From a virus, in the IMG/VR virus record IMGVR_UViG_3300014325_000025, positions 1 to 40,474 of that record: 40,474 nucleotides of DNA, one strand, 5' to 3'. Shown piece by piece: positions 280-16,764 of this stretch (its first letter is position 1; each line of letters begins with the position of its first letter). A program made the translations under genes and the position numbers. The notes below the pieces were generated by a model. That model worked only from the letters and a program-made list of their open reading frames with translations. It made no database searches and was not told the origin of the DNA.

Positions 280-680
280 CAGTCGGCCAGGATCTCCCCG
301 TCCGCATCCGTCACGCCGAGGTCGCGCGCCTTGGCCTCGGCCGCGCGAAGAGCCTCACCCCATGTCCGACCGCGATCCTGCTTCACCTGAGCATGCTCGA
401 GGATGTTCCCCGCGGCGGTGCTCCCGCGGTCAAACATCCCAGCGACCGCCACGCCCTCATATACGGACAGCGTTTCCAGGGACACGCCTTCGGCGTGCAA
501 AGCGTGGGCGATCAGACATCCGGGCACGGCCGTGCCCGTGACAAGGTCCCCGTGAATGTAATAGCAACCATCCCGGTCACCGTTTTCGTTGACGTAGATG
601 GTGCCCTCACGGCCAGCAACAGCCTGCCGCAGGGCCAGCAGGGCTCTACTTGGTGTGATCTCAGCAAGAGACGTCATCAT
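279..680 (-). CDS. Conserved phage protein, paralogue of the gene at 7341-7736
   Basis: A 133-residue protein. It aligns along its whole length with the product of 7341-7736: both begin with an LAEITPSRAL / LEEITPGRAL segment, have a CYYIHGD / CYYLHGR core, PGCLIAHAL / PGCLIGHAL, then TWGEAL and an ALGVTDA-type C terminus. No catalytic motif is obvious. The start overlaps the upstream stop (ATGATG, so either ATG is possible). Two diverged copies in one operon suggest duplication or acquisition of a paralogue. Function unknown. Confidence 0.8.
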   Translation of the reverse strand: MMTSLAEITPSRALLALRQAVAGREGTIYVNENGDRDGCYYIHGDLVTGTAVPGCLIAHALHAEGVSLETLSVYEGVAVAGMFDRGSTAAGNILEHAQVKQDRGRTWGEALRAAEAKARDLGVTDADGEILAD

Positions 681-1219
681 CCGCCGTTCATGTGGTAGGC
701 GAGGGCCTGTACCGCGCGCGAAAACCGCTTCCGCGCAGTCACATCCGTGGGGTCGTAGCCGGTCAACGCGTTCCGCTGGTCAGCTGACAGGCATTCCCAC
801 CCGATGGCCATGTCCGCCATGCCGGCCAGAGGCTCACTGGCTGCCGCGCCAGGGTCCACAGGCTCACTGCCCACAGGGACCGGCGCGGCCTCCCAACCGT
901 CTCGGGAGGCCAGGAAGACGGGCAGCAACGCGCGGACATCATCCGTGCTGTACCGCCACTGACCGGTACGGGCGAGGTAGGCGGCACGCTCACGCCTGCA
1001 GTAGCTGTCCGCCGTCCGGCGGGCAGCAGCATTGACTTCCTGCCGACTCGCCGAGGTCGGGTCCGGCCAGCCGGACAACAGCCGGATCATGATTTCCTGC
1101 GCCAGGTCGGCGGCCTCGATGGGATAGCCGTACCGCGCGGCAAAGCCTCGCGCTACCCCATCCGCCTGCGCCTGCAGCCGCTCGAAGCATTCCACGGCCT
1201 GTTCCGGACTCCACGTCAT
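677..1219 (-). CDS. Sigma-factor-like protein (region 2-like N terminus)
   Basis: 180 residues. The N-terminal half contains YPIEAADLAQEIMIRLLSGW (about residues 31-50), which resembles the DLxQEvfl helix of sigma-70 region 2 in ECF-like proteins. A basic helical segment (RRTADSYCRRERAAYLART) follows, and a C-terminal helical part (DQRNALTGYDPTDVTARKRF) could be a degenerate region 4 helix-turn-helix. Such sigma-like genes are common in actinophages, though promoter recognition has rarely been shown. The start at 1219 overlaps the preceding small basic gene (ATGA). A general DNA-binding regulator is the alternative. Confidence 0.65.
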   Translation of the reverse strand: MTWSPEQAVECFERLQAQADGVARGFAARYGYPIEAADLAQEIMIRLLSGWPDPTSASRQEVNAAARRTADSYCRRERAAYLARTGQWRYSTDDVRALLPVFLASRDGWEAAPVPVGSEPVDPGAAASEPLAGMADMAIGWECLSADQRNALTGYDPTDVTARKRFSRAVQALAYHMNGG

Positions 1220-2176: not shown

Positions 2177-2928
2177 GTGGCCTCCCTAGATGTGTGTGGA
2201 TTCCCGCCATCGAGCGCCCACGCAATCGACCGGCCAATGACCTCGGCGCAGGCCGGTACGACCGCGTTTCCCAATGCCTTCACTCTGGCAGCGTCCAACC
2301 TTCCGGAAACCCCATCATGATCTCCACCAGCCGCACGGGCGGACGCCATGATCCGGTCAAGGAGATTATTTGCCGAACCCGCGTTTTCGTCGCCTGCCTG
2401 TACCGCGGGCCGCTGCCGATGCCCCATCCGTTTCGCCCCAACGCTGCCGTGGGGGTAGGCAGCGATAAACAGACGTCTTCGCATGTGTGGGAAACCCACG
2501 GCGCACGCCGTAAGCGGAGCCCATTCCGTGTCATAGCCGATATCGGTAAGACCATCAATCACCTCCTCGAGTCCTCGTTTCCGCAGGCCGATCACGTTCT
2601 CTGCGAGTACCGCATGCGGCTGCAGGTCGCGGATAGCCCGTAGCATTTCCGGCCAGAGCCACCGTTCGTCGTCGGCGCCCTGGTGCCGGCCCGCGATGGA
2701 CACTGGCTGGCAGGGGAAACCCCCTGCCAGCACGTCTACTCGCGGCACGGCCGTGAAATCAACGTCGTGGATGTCCTGCCATCGGTGGACGTCTGGCCAA
2801 TGTCTGGCCAGAACGGATGCGCAGAACGGGTCTTTTTCAACCTGCCATAGGCAGGTCATGCCGGCGCGTTCGAACCCGAGGTCTATTCCGCCGATGCCTG
2901 CGAACAGGCTGCCGAACGTCAGGGCCAC
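2173..2928 (-). CDS. DNA (cytosine-5) methyltransferase
   Basis: 251 residues with the canonical C5-methyltransferase motifs: motif I FAGIGG (9-14, S-adenosylmethionine binding), motif IV GGFPCQP with the catalytic Cys at about 73, motif VI ENV (110-112), motif VIII GFPHMRRRLFI (145-155) and a C-terminal motif X-like KALGNAVVP. The region between motifs VIII and X, the target recognition domain, is short, so the enzyme is compact. No cognate restriction endonuclease is seen beside it, so self-protection against host restriction is the likely role. Its stop overlaps the metallophosphoesterase start. Confidence 0.93.
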   Translation of the reverse strand: MALTFGSLFAGIGGIDLGFERAGMTCLWQVEKDPFCASVLARHWPDVHRWQDIHDVDFTAVPRVDVLAGGFPCQPVSIAGRHQGADDERWLWPEMLRAIRDLQPHAVLAENVIGLRKRGLEEVIDGLTDIGYDTEWAPLTACAVGFPHMRRRLFIAAYPHGSVGAKRMGHRQRPAVQAGDENAGSANNLLDRIMASARAAGGDHDGVSGRLDAARVKALGNAVVPACAEVIGRSIAWALDGGNPHTSREAT

Positions 2929-3587
2929 TAGGCGACCGCCTGCGCGGTCGCGCCCTTCGGCAGGTCGTCATGCTCGAGCAACGCCTTAAAGCTCGTTTTC
3001 GCCTGCGTGTGGTAGACCACAACGCCTTCCGGGCGCATCCATCCGGGGGCGGCATCCGACCCGCCGATACGCAGGTACTCGAGGGCCTCATCAACCAGCG
3101 CATCGGCGTAGATGCCCTGGCAGATGACGGGCACGACACCGCACGCCGAGGGCGCCGGGATGCGATCGTCTGCCAGGTCTGCATCAAGCTCACGCCACCG
3201 TGACGCGTTGAACAGGCTGAAACGGCGTTCAGAGAGGCCGTAGCCGCGCTGGATTCCCTGCCCCCACCATTCCCCATAGTGGTGCCCGGAGCCAAGCTCT
3301 GAGAGGCTTACAGCGTGGTCACGGACCCATGCGGCGAAGCCGTAGTTGTCGTTGTCGGGCGTGAGCCACCTGTTCCGGCTTCCGGCACGCACCTCCCAGA
3401 GGATGCCGCCGCGGGTCACAATGCTTGACCCGGTCGCGGCGGACCATGTGACCGCGACGCTACCATCATCGTCGCCCGCGCCAAGCGCGGCCACGGCCAC
3501 CAGGCCGTTGGTTCCGTCGATTTTCTCTGTGATGACCGCCCGCCTGCGCAGGCGGGGGATTTTCGGGAACGACGGGTAGGACTCCAT
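2928..3587 (-). CDS. RNA ligase (T4 Rnl2-like nucleotidyltransferase)
   Basis: 219 residues. The adenylation motif I EKIDGTNG is at 21-28, with Lys22 as predicted nucleophile. Later come a YGEWWG element (about 105-110), motif IV EGVVVYH (188-194) and a motif V-like KTSFKALLE (198-206). This order and spacing fit the Rnl2-like catalytic core. No separate C-terminal domain is present, so it is near-minimal. It probably seals RNA nicks, for example tRNAs cut by host nucleases. ATG at 3587 follows GGAAAGGAAGAGT. The stop overlaps the methyltransferase start by one base. Confidence 0.88.
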   Translation of the reverse strand: MESYPSFPKIPRLRRRAVITEKIDGTNGLVAVAALGAGDDDGSVAVTWSAATGSSIVTRGGILWEVRAGSRNRWLTPDNDNYGFAAWVRDHAVSLSELGSGHHYGEWWGQGIQRGYGLSERRFSLFNASRWRELDADLADDRIPAPSACGVVPVICQGIYADALVDEALEYLRIGGSDAAPGWMRPEGVVVYHTQAKTSFKALLEHDDLPKGATAQAVA

Positions 3588-6721: not shown

Positions 6722-7351
6722 TCAGGCTGCCCTCTCGGGCAGCCATACGGATATGGCCTCGCCATGCTCGAGCGCGGCGAGCATGCGCGGGTATGGTGGG
6801 TCGGCCAGGTAGGCGTCTGCCTCAGCCCAGCCGGATAGCCCCCGCGACTCGTAGTGCCCTAGGATTAGGTTGCAAGACCGGCAGAGAATTCCACGAACAC
6901 ACTTTCCGCATGAGCCATCACGACCGGGGCAACACGAATGGTCATGGTCGGTGTGGATATGCTTTGTCGCCATCCGGTCGAACGGCGAGCGGCAAATAGC
7001 GCAGGAACTATCCTGCAGACCTACCAGATGCTCCCGGAGGAACGCGGACATGCCGTATTTGACGGTGGCCTGCCAGGCGCGCTTCTGCGCGCGCCGCCGT
7101 TCCCGGTTCGCCGCGTAGTAGGCGCGGTTAGATTCGCTCACCCGTTCCCGGTTCGCCGCGCGGTAGGCGCGGTTAGATTCGCGCGCCCGTTCCCGGTTCG
7201 CCGCGCGGTAGGCGCGGTTATATTCGCGCGCGCAGCCCTTGCACCAGCAATTCAGGCCGCCCGGCCTCGTCCTGTTCCTTCCGTACTCCTCTAGCGGTTT
7301 CACCTGGCCGCATTTGGTGCACGCCTTCCCGACGTCAGGATCAGTCAACAA
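6722..7351 (-). CDS. Recombination endonuclease VII family protein
   Basis: 209 residues. An N-terminal zinc hook (CTKCGQ...CWCKGC) is followed by three imperfect 15-residue repeats of the AYRAANRERARESNR type. The endonuclease VII core is CAICRSPF...HTDHDHSC...CVRGILCRSCNLILGHYES, with the conserved His/Asp and four Cys. The family cleaves branched DNA such as Holliday junctions. Start is one of two adjacent TTG codons at 7351/7348, overlapping the upstream gene. The basic repeats probably form a DNA-binding helix whose length can vary by slippage. Confidence 0.85.
   Translation of the reverse strand: MLTDPDVGKACTKCGQVKPLEEYGRNRTRPGGLNCWCKGCAREYNRAYRAANRERARESNRAYRAANRERVSESNRAYYAANRERRRAQKRAWQATVKYGMSAFLREHLVGLQDSSCAICRSPFDRMATKHIHTDHDHSCCPGRDGSCGKCVRGILCRSCNLILGHYESRGLSGWAEADAYLADPPYPRMLAALEHGEAISVWLPERAA
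7097..7231. repeat. Three tandem 45-bp repeats inside the endonuclease VII gene
   Basis: Three consecutive 45-bp units at 7097-7141, 7142-7186 and 7187-7231, each starting CCGTTCCCGGTTCGCCGCG. They encode the basic 15-residue repeats between the zinc hook and the nuclease core. The length is a multiple of three, so copy number can change without breaking the frame. Confidence 0.9.
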
Positions 7352-7736
7352 TGATGTTCCCCGCAGCGTCGGTCACGCCCAGAGCCCTAGCCCTTTCCTC
7401 GGCGAACAGCAGGGCCTCACCCCACGTCTCGCCCTCGTCCTGGGCGGCCTGCGCCGCGCGCAGGACGATCCGCACCGCGGCAAGGTCCGGGAACATCACT
7501 CTGACGCTGCATCCCTCCCAGCCATCGAGGATGGCAGGGTCGACACCTTCGGCGATAAGGGCATGGCCAATCAGGCAGCCCGGGCGGACGGGGTTACCGT
7601 CGCCCCTGCCATGCAGGTAGTAGCACCTCCCGCCCTCACCGTCCGGGCTGGTGTAAACGAAATTCTCGCGGCCCTTCACAGCCGTCCGTATCGCACGCAG
7701 AGCCCTACCGGGGGTGATCTCCTCGAGCGTGGTCAT
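7341..7736 (-). CDS. Conserved phage protein, paralogue of the gene at 279-680
   Basis: 131 residues from an ATG at 7736 that overlaps the helicase stop (ATGA). An in-frame ATG at 7763 would place nine extra residues inside the helicase gene and is less likely. The sequence starts MTTLEEITPGRALRAIRTAV and has CYYLHGRGDG, PGCLIGHALIAEGVDP and TWGEALLFAEERARALGV. Each segment has a counterpart in the second copy. No catalytic motif is recognised. Confidence 0.78.
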   Translation of the reverse strand: MTTLEEITPGRALRAIRTAVKGRENFVYTSPDGEGGRCYYLHGRGDGNPVRPGCLIGHALIAEGVDPAILDGWEGCSVRVMFPDLAAVRIVLRAAQAAQDEGETWGEALLFAEERARALGVTDAAGNIIVD

Positions 7737-8500
7737 GCCAGAATACCCCTTTCCAAATCCCATGAGAGCAGGGTGTTATAGTGGCCTGCGGCCGACGCAT
7801 TCCCACCGCGGTTCTTGACAATCGCCACACCCATTTTCGGCCAGGTGTCATCGCCCGCGCGCCACAAGGTGAGAACCTGTTCGGGCACTTTGGAAATCTT
7901 TCCGCGTAGACCGGAAAGGGGAACGGGAGAATCGCCGTTCTCATGCTCGCCTGTCACATGGTGCAACGCGACAATCAGAGCGCCTGTTTTCCGGGCCACA
8001 TCATGCAGATAGTCGCAGACGGATTCCAGCCCGCCCCACCTGTCATCACCTCCCGCATCAATGTTCGCCAGATTGTCAACAACGATGATTTCGGGCCATG
8101 CGCCGTAGACCTGCGCATATGCCATAAGCTCATCGTCCACATCATCCTGGGAGAGTGATGATTCGTAGACGAATTGGATATGATGCAGGTCGGAAATGTA
8201 CCGTTCGTAGCCCGCCGGATAGCGGGCTATGTCCTCAATGGGAATACCCGTGTGCATCGAACATAGACGGGTGTACTGTGTGTGTGCGTCCGTGTCGGCC
8301 GAAATGTAAAGGGTGCGCAGCTGCGCCCGGTAGGCCAAATTCAAAGCGAATGGGGATTTTCCGACGTTGGGCGCGGCAGCCACAAGAACCATTTGGCCGA
8401 GGCGCATTTTCAGGCCGAGGGCGGACAGCGGGGCGAACACGTCCTTCACGGGCGTGCCCGCCTGCCCGCCTGCCCTTAGCCCGCGTGTTGCGCTCAACAT
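7733..8500 (-). CDS. DnaB-like replicative helicase / RecA-fold ATPase
   Basis: 255 residues. Walker A is APNVGKS (43-49), preceded by the hydrophobic strand MVLVAA. Walker B is EIIVVDN (137-143). A later ALHHVTGEHENGD and LSGLRGKISKVPEQVLTLW segment matches the sensor and glutamine region of DnaB/RepA-type hexameric helicases. It lacks the N-terminal DnaB domain, as in many actinophages. With the split primase it should form the replisome core. ATG at 8500 has only a weak ribosome-binding site, and a repressor-type site lies just upstream. Confidence 0.85.
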   Translation of the reverse strand: MLSATRGLRAGGQAGTPVKDVFAPLSALGLKMRLGQMVLVAAAPNVGKSPFALNLAYRAQLRTLYISADTDAHTQYTRLCSMHTGIPIEDIARYPAGYERYISDLHHIQFVYESSLSQDDVDDELMAYAQVYGAWPEIIVVDNLANIDAGGDDRWGGLESVCDYLHDVARKTGALIVALHHVTGEHENGDSPVPLSGLRGKISKVPEQVLTLWRAGDDTWPKMGVAIVKNRGGNASAAGHYNTLLSWDLERGILA

Positions 8501-8537: not shown

Positions 8538-8945
8538 TTAGCGGCCCCACACCGTCGCGCAGTTCCGGTCAGCTGCACACGTGCCCCGATACCACGGCTT
8601 CTGCGTCTTCGTGGAAATCCCGTGCGCGAGCGTACGCGGCCCGTGGACAGGGCAAACCAGGTCGGCGGGTGAGAAGTGCCCGGAAAGGTCTCCCGGTGCG
8701 TAGGCGGGCGTGCTAGGGGCCGTCGCGGCGGCGTTGTAGGCAGGCGCCTGCGGGGGAGGTGTAAGCAGCGGCGCGGCGGCAGTCAGAGCGCGGTGCATCT
8801 CGAGCCCATCGGCGAGCCTCTGCGCGGCCTCGGCCGTCGTCATCCCAGCGAGCAACCCGGTAACCTCTTCCGGGCTGTCACCCCGCAGATTGATCATAGG
8901 CCCGTTGTTGGAATAGGAGACCTGGACCTTATAGTCATCCGACAA
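8538..8945 (-). CDS. Hypothetical protein with C-terminal Cys/His cluster
   Basis: 135 residues. A structured N terminus (MSDDYKVQVSYSNNGPMINL, then a helix with AEAAQRLADGLEMHRAL) is followed by a Pro/Ala-rich linker (about 58-85) and a C-terminal zinc-ribbon-like segment CPVHGPR...GTCAADRNC. Genes with this layout often sit next to the RecB/Cas4-type exonuclease in actinophages, as here, so a single-strand DNA-binding or recombination partner role is possible. The function is not established. Confidence 0.72.
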   Translation of the reverse strand: MSDDYKVQVSYSNNGPMINLRGDSPEEVTGLLAGMTTAEAAQRLADGLEMHRALTAAAPLLTPPPQAPAYNAAATAPSTPAYAPGDLSGHFSPADLVCPVHGPRTLAHGISTKTQKPWYRGTCAADRNCATVWGR

Positions 8946-13475: not shown

Positions 13476-13507
13476 ATTAGTATATATAATAAAGAAGGCA
13501 GTTGATC

Positions 13508-13840
13508 ATGTTAGCTTGCCTCACCTGCGGCAAGCTCACCCCCCGAAGCTACTGCCCTCAGCACCAACCCCCGCGCCCACGCGGGCGCCACCGCAACCGC
13601 CTCTCATCCTCAGCCAGGGGCTACACCGCGGCCTGGCGCACCCACAGGGCGCAGGCCATCCAGGACCACCCATGGTGCGCTGCCTGCGGCAGCCTTGACA
13701 GGCTCACCGGTGACCACATCACCCCCCTCTCGCGAGGGGGAGACCCGCTAGGGCCCGTCCTGGTCCTCTGCCTCAGCTGTAACAGCCGCAGAGGCGCGGG
13801 CCCCTTGCCCGCGCTCCCCTACCTACACCGACGCCCCTAG
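13508..13840 (+). CDS. HNH endonuclease
   Basis: 110 residues. A zinc pair (CLTCGK, YCPQHQ) precedes an Arg-rich linker, then the HNH core WCAACGSLDRLTGDHITPLS with later LCLSCNSRRG. The two C-x2-C pairs and DHITP match the HNH fold of phage packaging-associated nucleases. In HK97-type phages such a protein helps the terminase to cut DNA, and here the terminase genes lie a few kb downstream. ATG 13508 follows AGAAGG. A TTG two codons upstream is possible. Confidence 0.85.
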   Translation: MLACLTCGKLTPRSYCPQHQPPRPRGRHRNRLSSSARGYTAAWRTHRAQAIQDHPWCAACGSLDRLTGDHITPLSRGGDPLGPVLVLCLSCNSRRGAGPLPALPYLHRRP

Positions 13841-14815: not shown

Positions 14816-15000
14816 TCAGGCCGCCTTGACGCGTAGCTCATACGGCACCGCCGTGCCGTGCGGTGGGGGCCGGGGGTGCATGCGGCCATATACCAGGCCG
14901 ACGCGGACCTGGTGGCCCCCCCCCGCCTCGGCTGTTGACCGACGATGAGTTTGACGCGCTGCTGCGCGCGGGTGGACCGCCTGTAGCGGAATGACGAAGG
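14816..15000 (-). pseudogene. Possible degraded small gene interrupted at a C9 run
   Basis: On the minus strand one frame reads RYRRSTRAQQRVKLIVGQQ and another, downstream of a nine-base homopolymer (about 14918-14926), reads HQVRVGLVYGRM then HGTAVPYELRVKAA. The latter resembles the GTALPMEIKFVAF end of the gene at 15552-15908. Joining the two would need a frameshift at the homopolymer. Either a decayed paralogue or a sequencing error is possible, and no intact start is seen. Confidence 0.3.
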
Positions 15001-15020
15001 GCTCCCCGTAGGGAGCCCTT
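14997..15020. terminator. Hairpin at the distal end of the CRISPR-like array
   Basis: A perfect 10-bp stem (AAGGGCTCCC / GGGAGCCCTT) with a CGTA loop ends exactly where the first CRISPR-like repeat begins. For a minus-strand transcript it would be the 3' terminator of the array. Confidence 0.65.
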
Positions 15021-15231
15021 CTGTGCCCCCACGGTCGTGAGGAGGGTGCGACGCCTGCAACATCACGTCGGGAAGAGTGGTGGTTCACCCCCACGGTCGT
15101 GGGGAAGGCTGTCGCAGCGTCCTGCTGCTGGCGTCAGCCGCTGGTTCACCCCCACTGAGGTGGGGAGGGTGTTGCCATGTGCCTGCTGCATGCACCGGCA
15201 GGTGGGACACCCCCACGGTCGTGGGGAGGTG
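15020..15231 (-). CRISPR. Mini-CRISPR array, type I-E-like, four repeats and three spacers
   Basis: Four 28-nt units start at 15020, 15082, 15143 and 15204, a period of 62, 61 and 61. The spacers (15048-15081, 15110-15142, 15171-15203; 34, 33 and 33 nt) are unrelated. Three of the four units share CACCCCCAC and all keep a CCCCAC...GTGGGG-type stem, with one mismatch in the first. Read on the minus strand the repeat ends GTGGGGGTGAACC, like actinobacterial type I-E repeats. The repeats are imperfect: the 15143 unit has a different loop, and the outer two have decayed ends. No cas gene is present. The array begins 16 nt after the stop codon of the gene at 15248-15484, so the two are probably cotranscribed. 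Confidence 0.68.
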
Positions 15232-15247
15232 GCGCGGACACAGCATA

Positions 15248-15484
15248 TCAGGCAACGCACACCTTGCGGTACCCCTCGGCCGATCGCGTCTCGCCTACGC
15301 CCTTGCCGTAGTTGCCGATCGGCCCGTAGTCGATGGTGACCGTGCCGGCCTCCTCGTCATGCTCCTGTACGTTGACAGGGTGCCCGTCCGGGTCTAGCCA
15401 GATCCACCCCCCGTCCGCGGTCTCCGCCGCGTGGATCTGCTCAGGCGTTGGCGTTCCGATCAGGTTCATGTCCGCATCGAACAT
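15248..15484 (-). CDS. Hypothetical accessory protein upstream of the mini-CRISPR array
   Basis: 78 residues, starting MFDADMNLIGTPTPEQIHAA and containing GGWIWLDPDGHPV and TVTIDYGPIGNYGKGV. It looks like a small beta-rich domain. It has its own promoter (15527-15555) and a purine-rich leader. Its 3' end runs straight into the CRISPR-like array on the same strand. Function unknown. Confidence 0.7.
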   Translation of the reverse strand: MFDADMNLIGTPTPEQIHAAETADGGWIWLDPDGHPVNVQEHDEEAGTVTIDYGPIGNYGKGVGETRSAEGYRKVCVA

Positions 15485-15526: not shown

Positions 15527-15555
15527 ACTCTATCCGAACCGCATGACACTATCAA
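15527..15555 (-). promoter_or_regulatory. Accessory promoter P1 (palindromic -35 family)
   Basis: Minus strand TTGATA (15550-15555), 17-bp spacer, TAGAGT (15527-15532). The -35 lies in a decayed copy of the 21-bp palindrome. GGTGTCACACC near the start point is also found at the promoters at 36818 and 38144. It reads through the 78-residue gene into the mini-CRISPR array. Confidence 0.75.
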
Positions 15556-15908
15556 AAGGCTACGAACTTGATTTCCATCGGCAGAGCCGTGCCGTACGCC
15601 CTGCCCGCCAGCAACCTGGCGAACTTCTCACCCCCGCCGATCTTTCCCGCCCATGCGGGGAGCCGCTGATACGCGGCCAGGACGCGCGGATCCTCGGCCG
15701 CGATGAACCCGCCATCGGGGGCGGTCACTCCGGCGGTGGCCACCACGCGGATGTTCCGCCCGGACCGGTCGGTGTCGCTGTAGACGCTAATCACGGCCTG
15801 GCCGTTGGCCAGGTCTGAGGCCAGGTCGCCATCCTCGGGTGTCCAGCCGTCCGCGTTATACAGCGCGGCCTCGTCGCGGACGCGTTCCGGTGTCCAGCTG
15901 TCTGCCAT
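15552..15908 (-). CDS. Hypothetical accessory protein
   Basis: 118 residues beginning MADSWTPERVRDEAALYNAD. It contains QAVISVYSDTDRSGRNIRVV and ends GRAYGTALPMEIKFVAF. It is acidic at the N terminus. The gene has its own promoter with the palindromic -35, and its stop codon overlaps the -35 of the next promoter. Function unknown. The C-terminal segment resembles the possible pseudogene at 14816-15000. Confidence 0.72.
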   Translation of the reverse strand: MADSWTPERVRDEAALYNADGWTPEDGDLASDLANGQAVISVYSDTDRSGRNIRVVATAGVTAPDGGFIAAEDPRVLAAYQRLPAWAGKIGGGEKFARLLAGRAYGTALPMEIKFVAF

Positions 15909-16274: not shown

Positions 16275-16308
16275 ATGGTTCCCCATGATTTTTTAGGGGG
16301 TGACCTCG

Positions 16309-16764
16309 ATGGCACCACGGACGAAGCCAACGGCTTTGAAGCTGCTGCAGGGTGACGACAGGACGCACCCCGGTCGGATCAACCGCGCCGAGGCCGCGCC
16401 ACCGGTGGTCACGGACCTGGTACCGCCGATTGAGCTGGACGCCGAGGCGCAACGGGTGTGGGATCATTTCGGCCCGATGCTGCGCAGGCAGCGCCTGTTG
16501 ACCGAGGCCGACCGGCTTTCGTTCGCTGCGCTCTGCCAGTCATGGAGTCTGTACGCCGAGGCGTCCGCCACGGTGCGGCGTGAGGGCACGCTGACGGTTG
16601 GGGTTAAGGGTCAGCCGGTGCGGAATCCTGCCGCCCTGGTGGCGAAGGACGCGCTACAGGACTACATGCGCCTAGCCACGGAGTTCGGCCTGACCCCGTC
16701 CAGCCGTGCGCGGATCGTGCTGCCCGCGGCGGATGGCGATGACCTCGACGCGATGCTCGCCTAG
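16309..16764 (+). CDS. terS: Terminase small subunit (P27 family)
   Basis: 151 residues beginning MAPRTKPTALKLLQGDDRTH, the characteristic P27-family N terminus. It continues with the ELDAEAQRVWDHFGPMLRRQ helix pair and DRLSFAALCQSWSLYAEA, and ends TEFGLTPSSRARI. It recognises the packaging site and recruits the large subunit. ATG 16309 follows AGGGGG, and a GTG three codons upstream is less well placed. Unusually, a block of minus-strand genes separates it from the large subunit. Confidence 0.92.
   Translation: MAPRTKPTALKLLQGDDRTHPGRINRAEAAPPVVTDLVPPIELDAEAQRVWDHFGPMLRRQRLLTEADRLSFAALCQSWSLYAEASATVRREGTLTVGVKGQPVRNPAALVAKDALQDYMRLATEFGLTPSSRARIVLPAADGDDLDAMLA

Follow-up and report, generated by a model that had tools for sequence, protein, structure and literature searches.

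What is a CRISPR array doing in the genome of a phage, and is it an array at all? The window, by which we mean the whole 40,474-bp virus record analysed here, is the genome of a temperate siphophage, in which a first-pass annotation had described a short repeat array with type I-E geometry. Virus-borne mini-CRISPR arrays have a precedent in SPV1 and SPV2 of the Sulfolobales (Medvedeva et al. 2019; PMC6858448), and a role for such Cas-less viral mini-arrays in conflicts between related archaeal viruses has been proposed from reciprocal targeting (PMC6858448). We conclude that the locus in the window is a real, phage-borne, Cas-less array of type I-E geometry, and that its repeat is of a host I-E type.

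Results

Genes for an integrase, a DnaB-like helicase, a primase, an exonuclease, an HNH protein, small and large terminase subunits, a portal protein and a tape measure protein were recognised in the window. These phage genes flank the array, with integrase and replication genes on one side and terminase and structural genes on the other, which places it inside the viral genome. It lies between the HNH endonuclease gene (13502-13840, plus strand) and the gene for the small terminase subunit, TerS (16300-16764, plus strand), the left and right borders of an accessory interval full of small genes that belong to no known family. The nearest relative, viral contig L037, has a terminase 77% identical to that of the window and is collinear with it from the integrase through the structural genes. 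The first-pass annotation had allowed that the spacers might be ordinary sequence conserved in related phages; this syntenic relative lacks the array, and we therefore read the array as accessory cargo. No relatives of the integrase were found in the viral contigs or in the phage collection, and the best match in a class-wide sample was 37% identical. Neither Rfam families nor tRNAs were detected in the window.

A repeat search returned a single four-copy family in the region, with start spacings of 62, 61 and 61 nt. Set in the 29-nt I-E register, the array occupies 15019-15231 on the minus strand, and comprises four repeats and three unique spacers of 32, 32 and 33 nt at a period of 61–62 nt. 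Four units of this period around three unrelated spacers is what had been described, and the constant period and unique, roughly 32-nt spacers are those of I-E arrays. The repeat sequence of the array is TCCCCACGACCGTGGGGGTGAACC. The leader-proximal unit by orientation, R1 (CACCTCCCCACGACCGTGGGGGTGTCCCA; 15203-15231), retains its stem and has an altered 8-nt handle, GTGTCCCA. R2 (ACCCTCCCCACCTCAGTGGGGGTGAACCA; 15142-15170) has a changed loop, CTCA versus GACC, and its stem and handle are intact, so the earlier remark that this unit keeps its stem despite a different loop was correct. R3 (GCCTTCCCCACGACCGTGGGGGTGAACCA; 15081-15109) comes nearest to the host-type I-E consensus (25/29, with one mismatch in the core), and in the terminal repeat, R4 (ACCCTCCTCACGACCGTGGGGGCACAGAA; 15019-15047), a wobble pair keeps the stem while the 3' end is lost. 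At up to three mismatches the core pattern occurs in three copies, versus none expected from 100 shuffles. The units are hairpin repeats of I-E length (28–29 nt) with an I-E core and an 8-nt handle, R2 and R3 having the canonical stem and GTGAACCA.

Along the minus strand, a promoter-like site is followed by a 78-amino acid gene, 16 nt, R1 to R4 and an 11-pair hairpin. The site ahead of the gene is a sigma-70-like match at 9/12 positions (TTGATA-17-TAGAGT; 15527-15555), and the gene itself (15248-15484) has no family match. The hairpin (14996-15021, fold −25.1 kcal/mol), directly past the array, is perfect and terminator-like, and has no U tract. Promoter, 16-nt distance and perfect hairpin had all been reported by the first-pass annotation, and each was recovered here. 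This order of elements suggests that the small gene and the array are probably co-transcribed. We found no recognisable leader, and the 16-nt gap between gene and R1 is too short for a separate one; thus, normal adaptation probably adds no spacers to the array. A single-sequence structure prediction for the upstream gene (mean pLDDT 67) was too weak for use. A further accessory gene, of 118 amino acids and no assigned function (15552-15908, minus strand), has one 39% identical relative in a phage contig (L116, 4998-5303); that relative lies near an ArdC-like anti-restriction gene, which hints at an anti-defence neighbourhood.

The description of the array as Cas-less was borne out. The Cas7e model PF09344 had no match in the window, while the same model found two copies in Acrocarpospora, and a PADLOC scan of the 46 window ORFs gave only methyltransferase and primase-like families, with no Cas, among the 25 of 58 matching families listed.

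The repeat was said to resemble those of actinobacterial type I-E arrays, and the comparison most able to overturn this claim did not do so. I-E arrays of Streptosporangiaceae have a repeat core one loop base away from that of the window (CCCCACG[C/A]CCGTGGGGGTGAACC) and the same 61-nt period; Acrocarpospora macrocephala, for example, carries CCCCACGCCCGTGGGGGTGAACC in large arrays with a period of 61 nt, and spacers in such arrays are 32 nt long, as in the window. Beyond the one core base, the repeat differs from the nearest sequenced arrays in its variable 5' end. The 8-nt handle GTGAACC(N) is common to both, ending in A in the window and in G in Streptosporangiaceae. Among the 299 genomes of the family of A. 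macrocephala (Streptosporangiaceae by NCBI taxonomy), 16 contain the core at up to one mismatch, mostly in long arrays. Matches in a class-wide sample of 395 genomes consisted of two genomes shared with the family sample and one isolated site, so that the core was all but restricted to this family. Of the ∼85,000 species genomes in the GTDB collection, only that of A. macrocephala contained the exact 23-nt core, as an isolated degraded copy. This copy belongs to an isolated cluster of degraded I-E-like repeats, some of them inverted (L054, 2835-3040). Sequence comparison thus provides good evidence for a repeat of the Streptosporangiaceae I-E type. The window array differs from the arrays of that family in being phage-borne and cas-free, in having four repeats and no recognisable leader, and in the greater divergence of its repeats. 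A Streptosporangiaceae-like actinobacterium is the most likely host of the phage. Repeat type does not prove the host, because the closest terminase among the 299 family genomes is 49% identical and because none of 395 host-type spacers matched the phage above control.

The repeats are unusually divergent. Their mean pairwise identity is 0.75 over R1–R4 and 0.80 over R1–R3, whereas 320 four-repeat stretches of host-type arrays had a minimum of 0.81 and a median of 1.0. The window array therefore falls below all of them and lacks the near-identical repeats that are usual in, although not strictly defining for, I-E arrays. The differences from the array consensus are unevenly placed: they affect 1 of 56 stem positions versus 14 of 60 other positions (Fisher p = 5e-4), a test somewhat biased towards the stem because units were recognised partly via their cores. 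The single stem change, C to T in R4, leaves a G-U pair. Host-type arrays display a weaker stem-sparing bias (0.6% versus 1.8%), so part of the bias in the window array may be inherited. Bad erosion is limited to the 3' end of R4 and the handle of R1. In the general scheme of I-E maturation, the lost end of R4 would enter no crRNA. Two of the three predicted crRNAs, those of SP2 and SP3, carry the canonical 8-nt handle GUGAACCA (GTGAACCA); that of SP1 carries the altered one.

The first-pass annotation had also proposed that the spacers might be aimed at rival phages. Searches of phages, plasmids and host-family genomes, and of viral contigs with exact 18-nt cores, turned up no protospacer and did not bear this out. 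BLAST with the array region returned nothing from phages and chance-level matches only from plasmids. No Streptosporangiaceae genome contained a spacer at up to three mismatches (SP1, 0/299; SP2, 0/156; SP3, 0/156). Among exact 18-nt cores in viral contigs, SP3 (33 nt, 15048-15080) had no match, SP1 (32 nt, 15171-15202) had one, and SP2 (32 nt, 15110-15141) matched one unrelated sequence in four contigs. The SP1 match, the best outside the window, falls in a terminase gene of L146 (18 nt exact, 22/32 overall). We treat it as chance because phages in the collection related to L146 infect Rhizobium, Myxococcus and other non-actinobacteria, and because the spacer is absent from the 299 Streptosporangiaceae genomes. 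The matching of SP2 to L117–L120 ends after the core. SP2 also aligns in frame with the integrase gene of the phage itself at 24/33 positions (a 33-mer that includes the last repeat base). Shuffles reach this score at a rate of about 1.2% per spacer, and we rejected the match as chance, because reversed host-type spacers equalled it in at least 8 of 395 cases.

Similar arrays occur in other viral contigs. A pattern scan found 33 stretches with a related repeat core, of which about 20 are arrays of at least two units at a 61–64-nt period. Cas-less arrays of the window's repeat type are present in about ten other viral contigs, most of them beside phage genes, and contain 2–6 repeats that are mostly cleaner than those of the window. 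In most, the neighbours are terminase, portal, head, tail or integrase genes: terminase and portal in L004 (array at 8636-8726), portal and capsid in L007 (12025-12113; L036 is a copy of this contig), terminase in L009 (12745-13016), head morphogenesis in L010 (5073-5225), portal in L018 (4881-5215), portal and head morphogenesis in L029 (2275-2424), and tail in L033 (3059-3147). The scan also yielded Cas-less I-E-type arrays in L016 (6527-6676) and L028 (8589-8799). Neither Cas7e nor Cas6e was found in the tested viral-contig records with arrays; many contigs are fragments, so for an individual contig this absence says little. A set of 24 spacers from other phage arrays had no match in the phage collection. 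Together with the window array, these contigs suggest that phages repeatedly carry Cas-less I-E arrays, some of which adjoin terminase or portal genes. Mini-arrays borne by phages of bacteria are less studied than those of the archaeal virus pair, and the window array and the viral contigs that share its I-E repeat family form a set with which to test whether bacteriophages exclude superinfecting rivals by means of host Cascade, and to study the ageing of such arrays.

Discussion

By anatomy, the array fits a known kind, the mini-array. Like those of SPV1 and SPV2, it is short and cas-free, lies in a viral genome and has a host-type repeat, and like the leaderless mini-arrays mentioned for phages and prophages (PMC6858448, PMC11656645) it has no recognisable leader. 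It has three spacers, whereas mini-arrays are usually defined by one or two, and it differs from the SPV1 and SPV2 arrays in being of an actinobacterial I-E type, in its imperfect repeats and in having no related-virus target that we could find.

Because the repeats are of the Streptosporangiaceae type, the phage probably borrows, or once borrowed, the CRISPR machinery of its host against rival phages. The array would be transcribed from the minus strand as the 3' region of the small accessory gene and end at the hairpin found there. Cleavage by host Cas6e at every conserved hairpin would then yield crRNAs for loading into host Cascade, and in a lysogen these would most likely direct interference against rival phages or other mobile elements. 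Cas7e does occur in one Streptosporangiaceae genome with host-type arrays. We consider the case for a Cas-less I-E mini-array that serves as accessory cargo for such host-Cas interference to be evenly balanced. Superinfection exclusion is plausible, at about even odds, and is the leading reading; its main rival is that the array is a relic, brought in by recombination with a host I-E locus and now decaying without present function.

We regard a relic as possible, if somewhat doubtful. The first-pass annotation had worried that the repeats are imperfect, especially at both ends, and this worry carries weight because their divergence exceeds that of every sampled host-type array; the eroded handle of R1 and end of R4, the lack of a leader and the lack of targets point the same way. 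What does not fit decay is that substitutions spare the hairpin stems, albeit with a milder bias of this kind in host-type arrays, that the 3' end of R4 is not needed for crRNA maturation, and that the array sits neatly between a gene and a hairpin. The array is possibly ageing. Retention of the hairpins while other parts drift could also mean that the transcript is an RNA anti-CRISPR or decoy that occupies host Cas6e or Cas7e, its handles or spacers being unfit for interference. Virus-encoded repeat mimics, I-E included, can inhibit host CRISPR (Camara-Wilpert et al. 2023; PMC10651486), and the window array resembles these Racrs as a phage-encoded CRISPR-repeat mimic with a conserved hairpin; the altered R1 handle and the absence of targets would suit such a role. 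However, the known Racrs each consist of a solitary repeat unit, and arrays are left out by the published finder (PMC10651486), whereas the window has four units at a constant period with proper spacers, and a decoy needs neither spacers of normal I-E length nor two canonical handles. We think mimicry of this kind rather unlikely. Slightly less probable still is a dual role, in which the transcript would starve host immunity as a decoy and also deliver two working crRNAs against rivals; the hairpins would be under selection to engage Cas6e and Cascade, the repeat ends and one handle would have drifted, and expression would be as the 3' region of the accessory gene. Finally, with just four imperfect units, lying close to the terminase genes and a replication-initiation-like gene, the locus might be a set of structured repeats that serve in protein binding or as transcription signals and resemble a CRISPR array in appearance only. 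This we consider very improbable, since the stem and 8-nt handle match true I-E repeats of the same period, the spacers are unique and of I-E length, and the syntenic relative is without the array.

Two further features of the phage were observed away from the array. The genes at 279-680 and 7341-7763 (both minus strand), in separate places and of no known family, are related to each other (51% identity by alignment). The phage also has an RNA-ligase-like gene (2928-3587, minus strand) and a weak sigma-factor-like gene (677-1219, minus strand).
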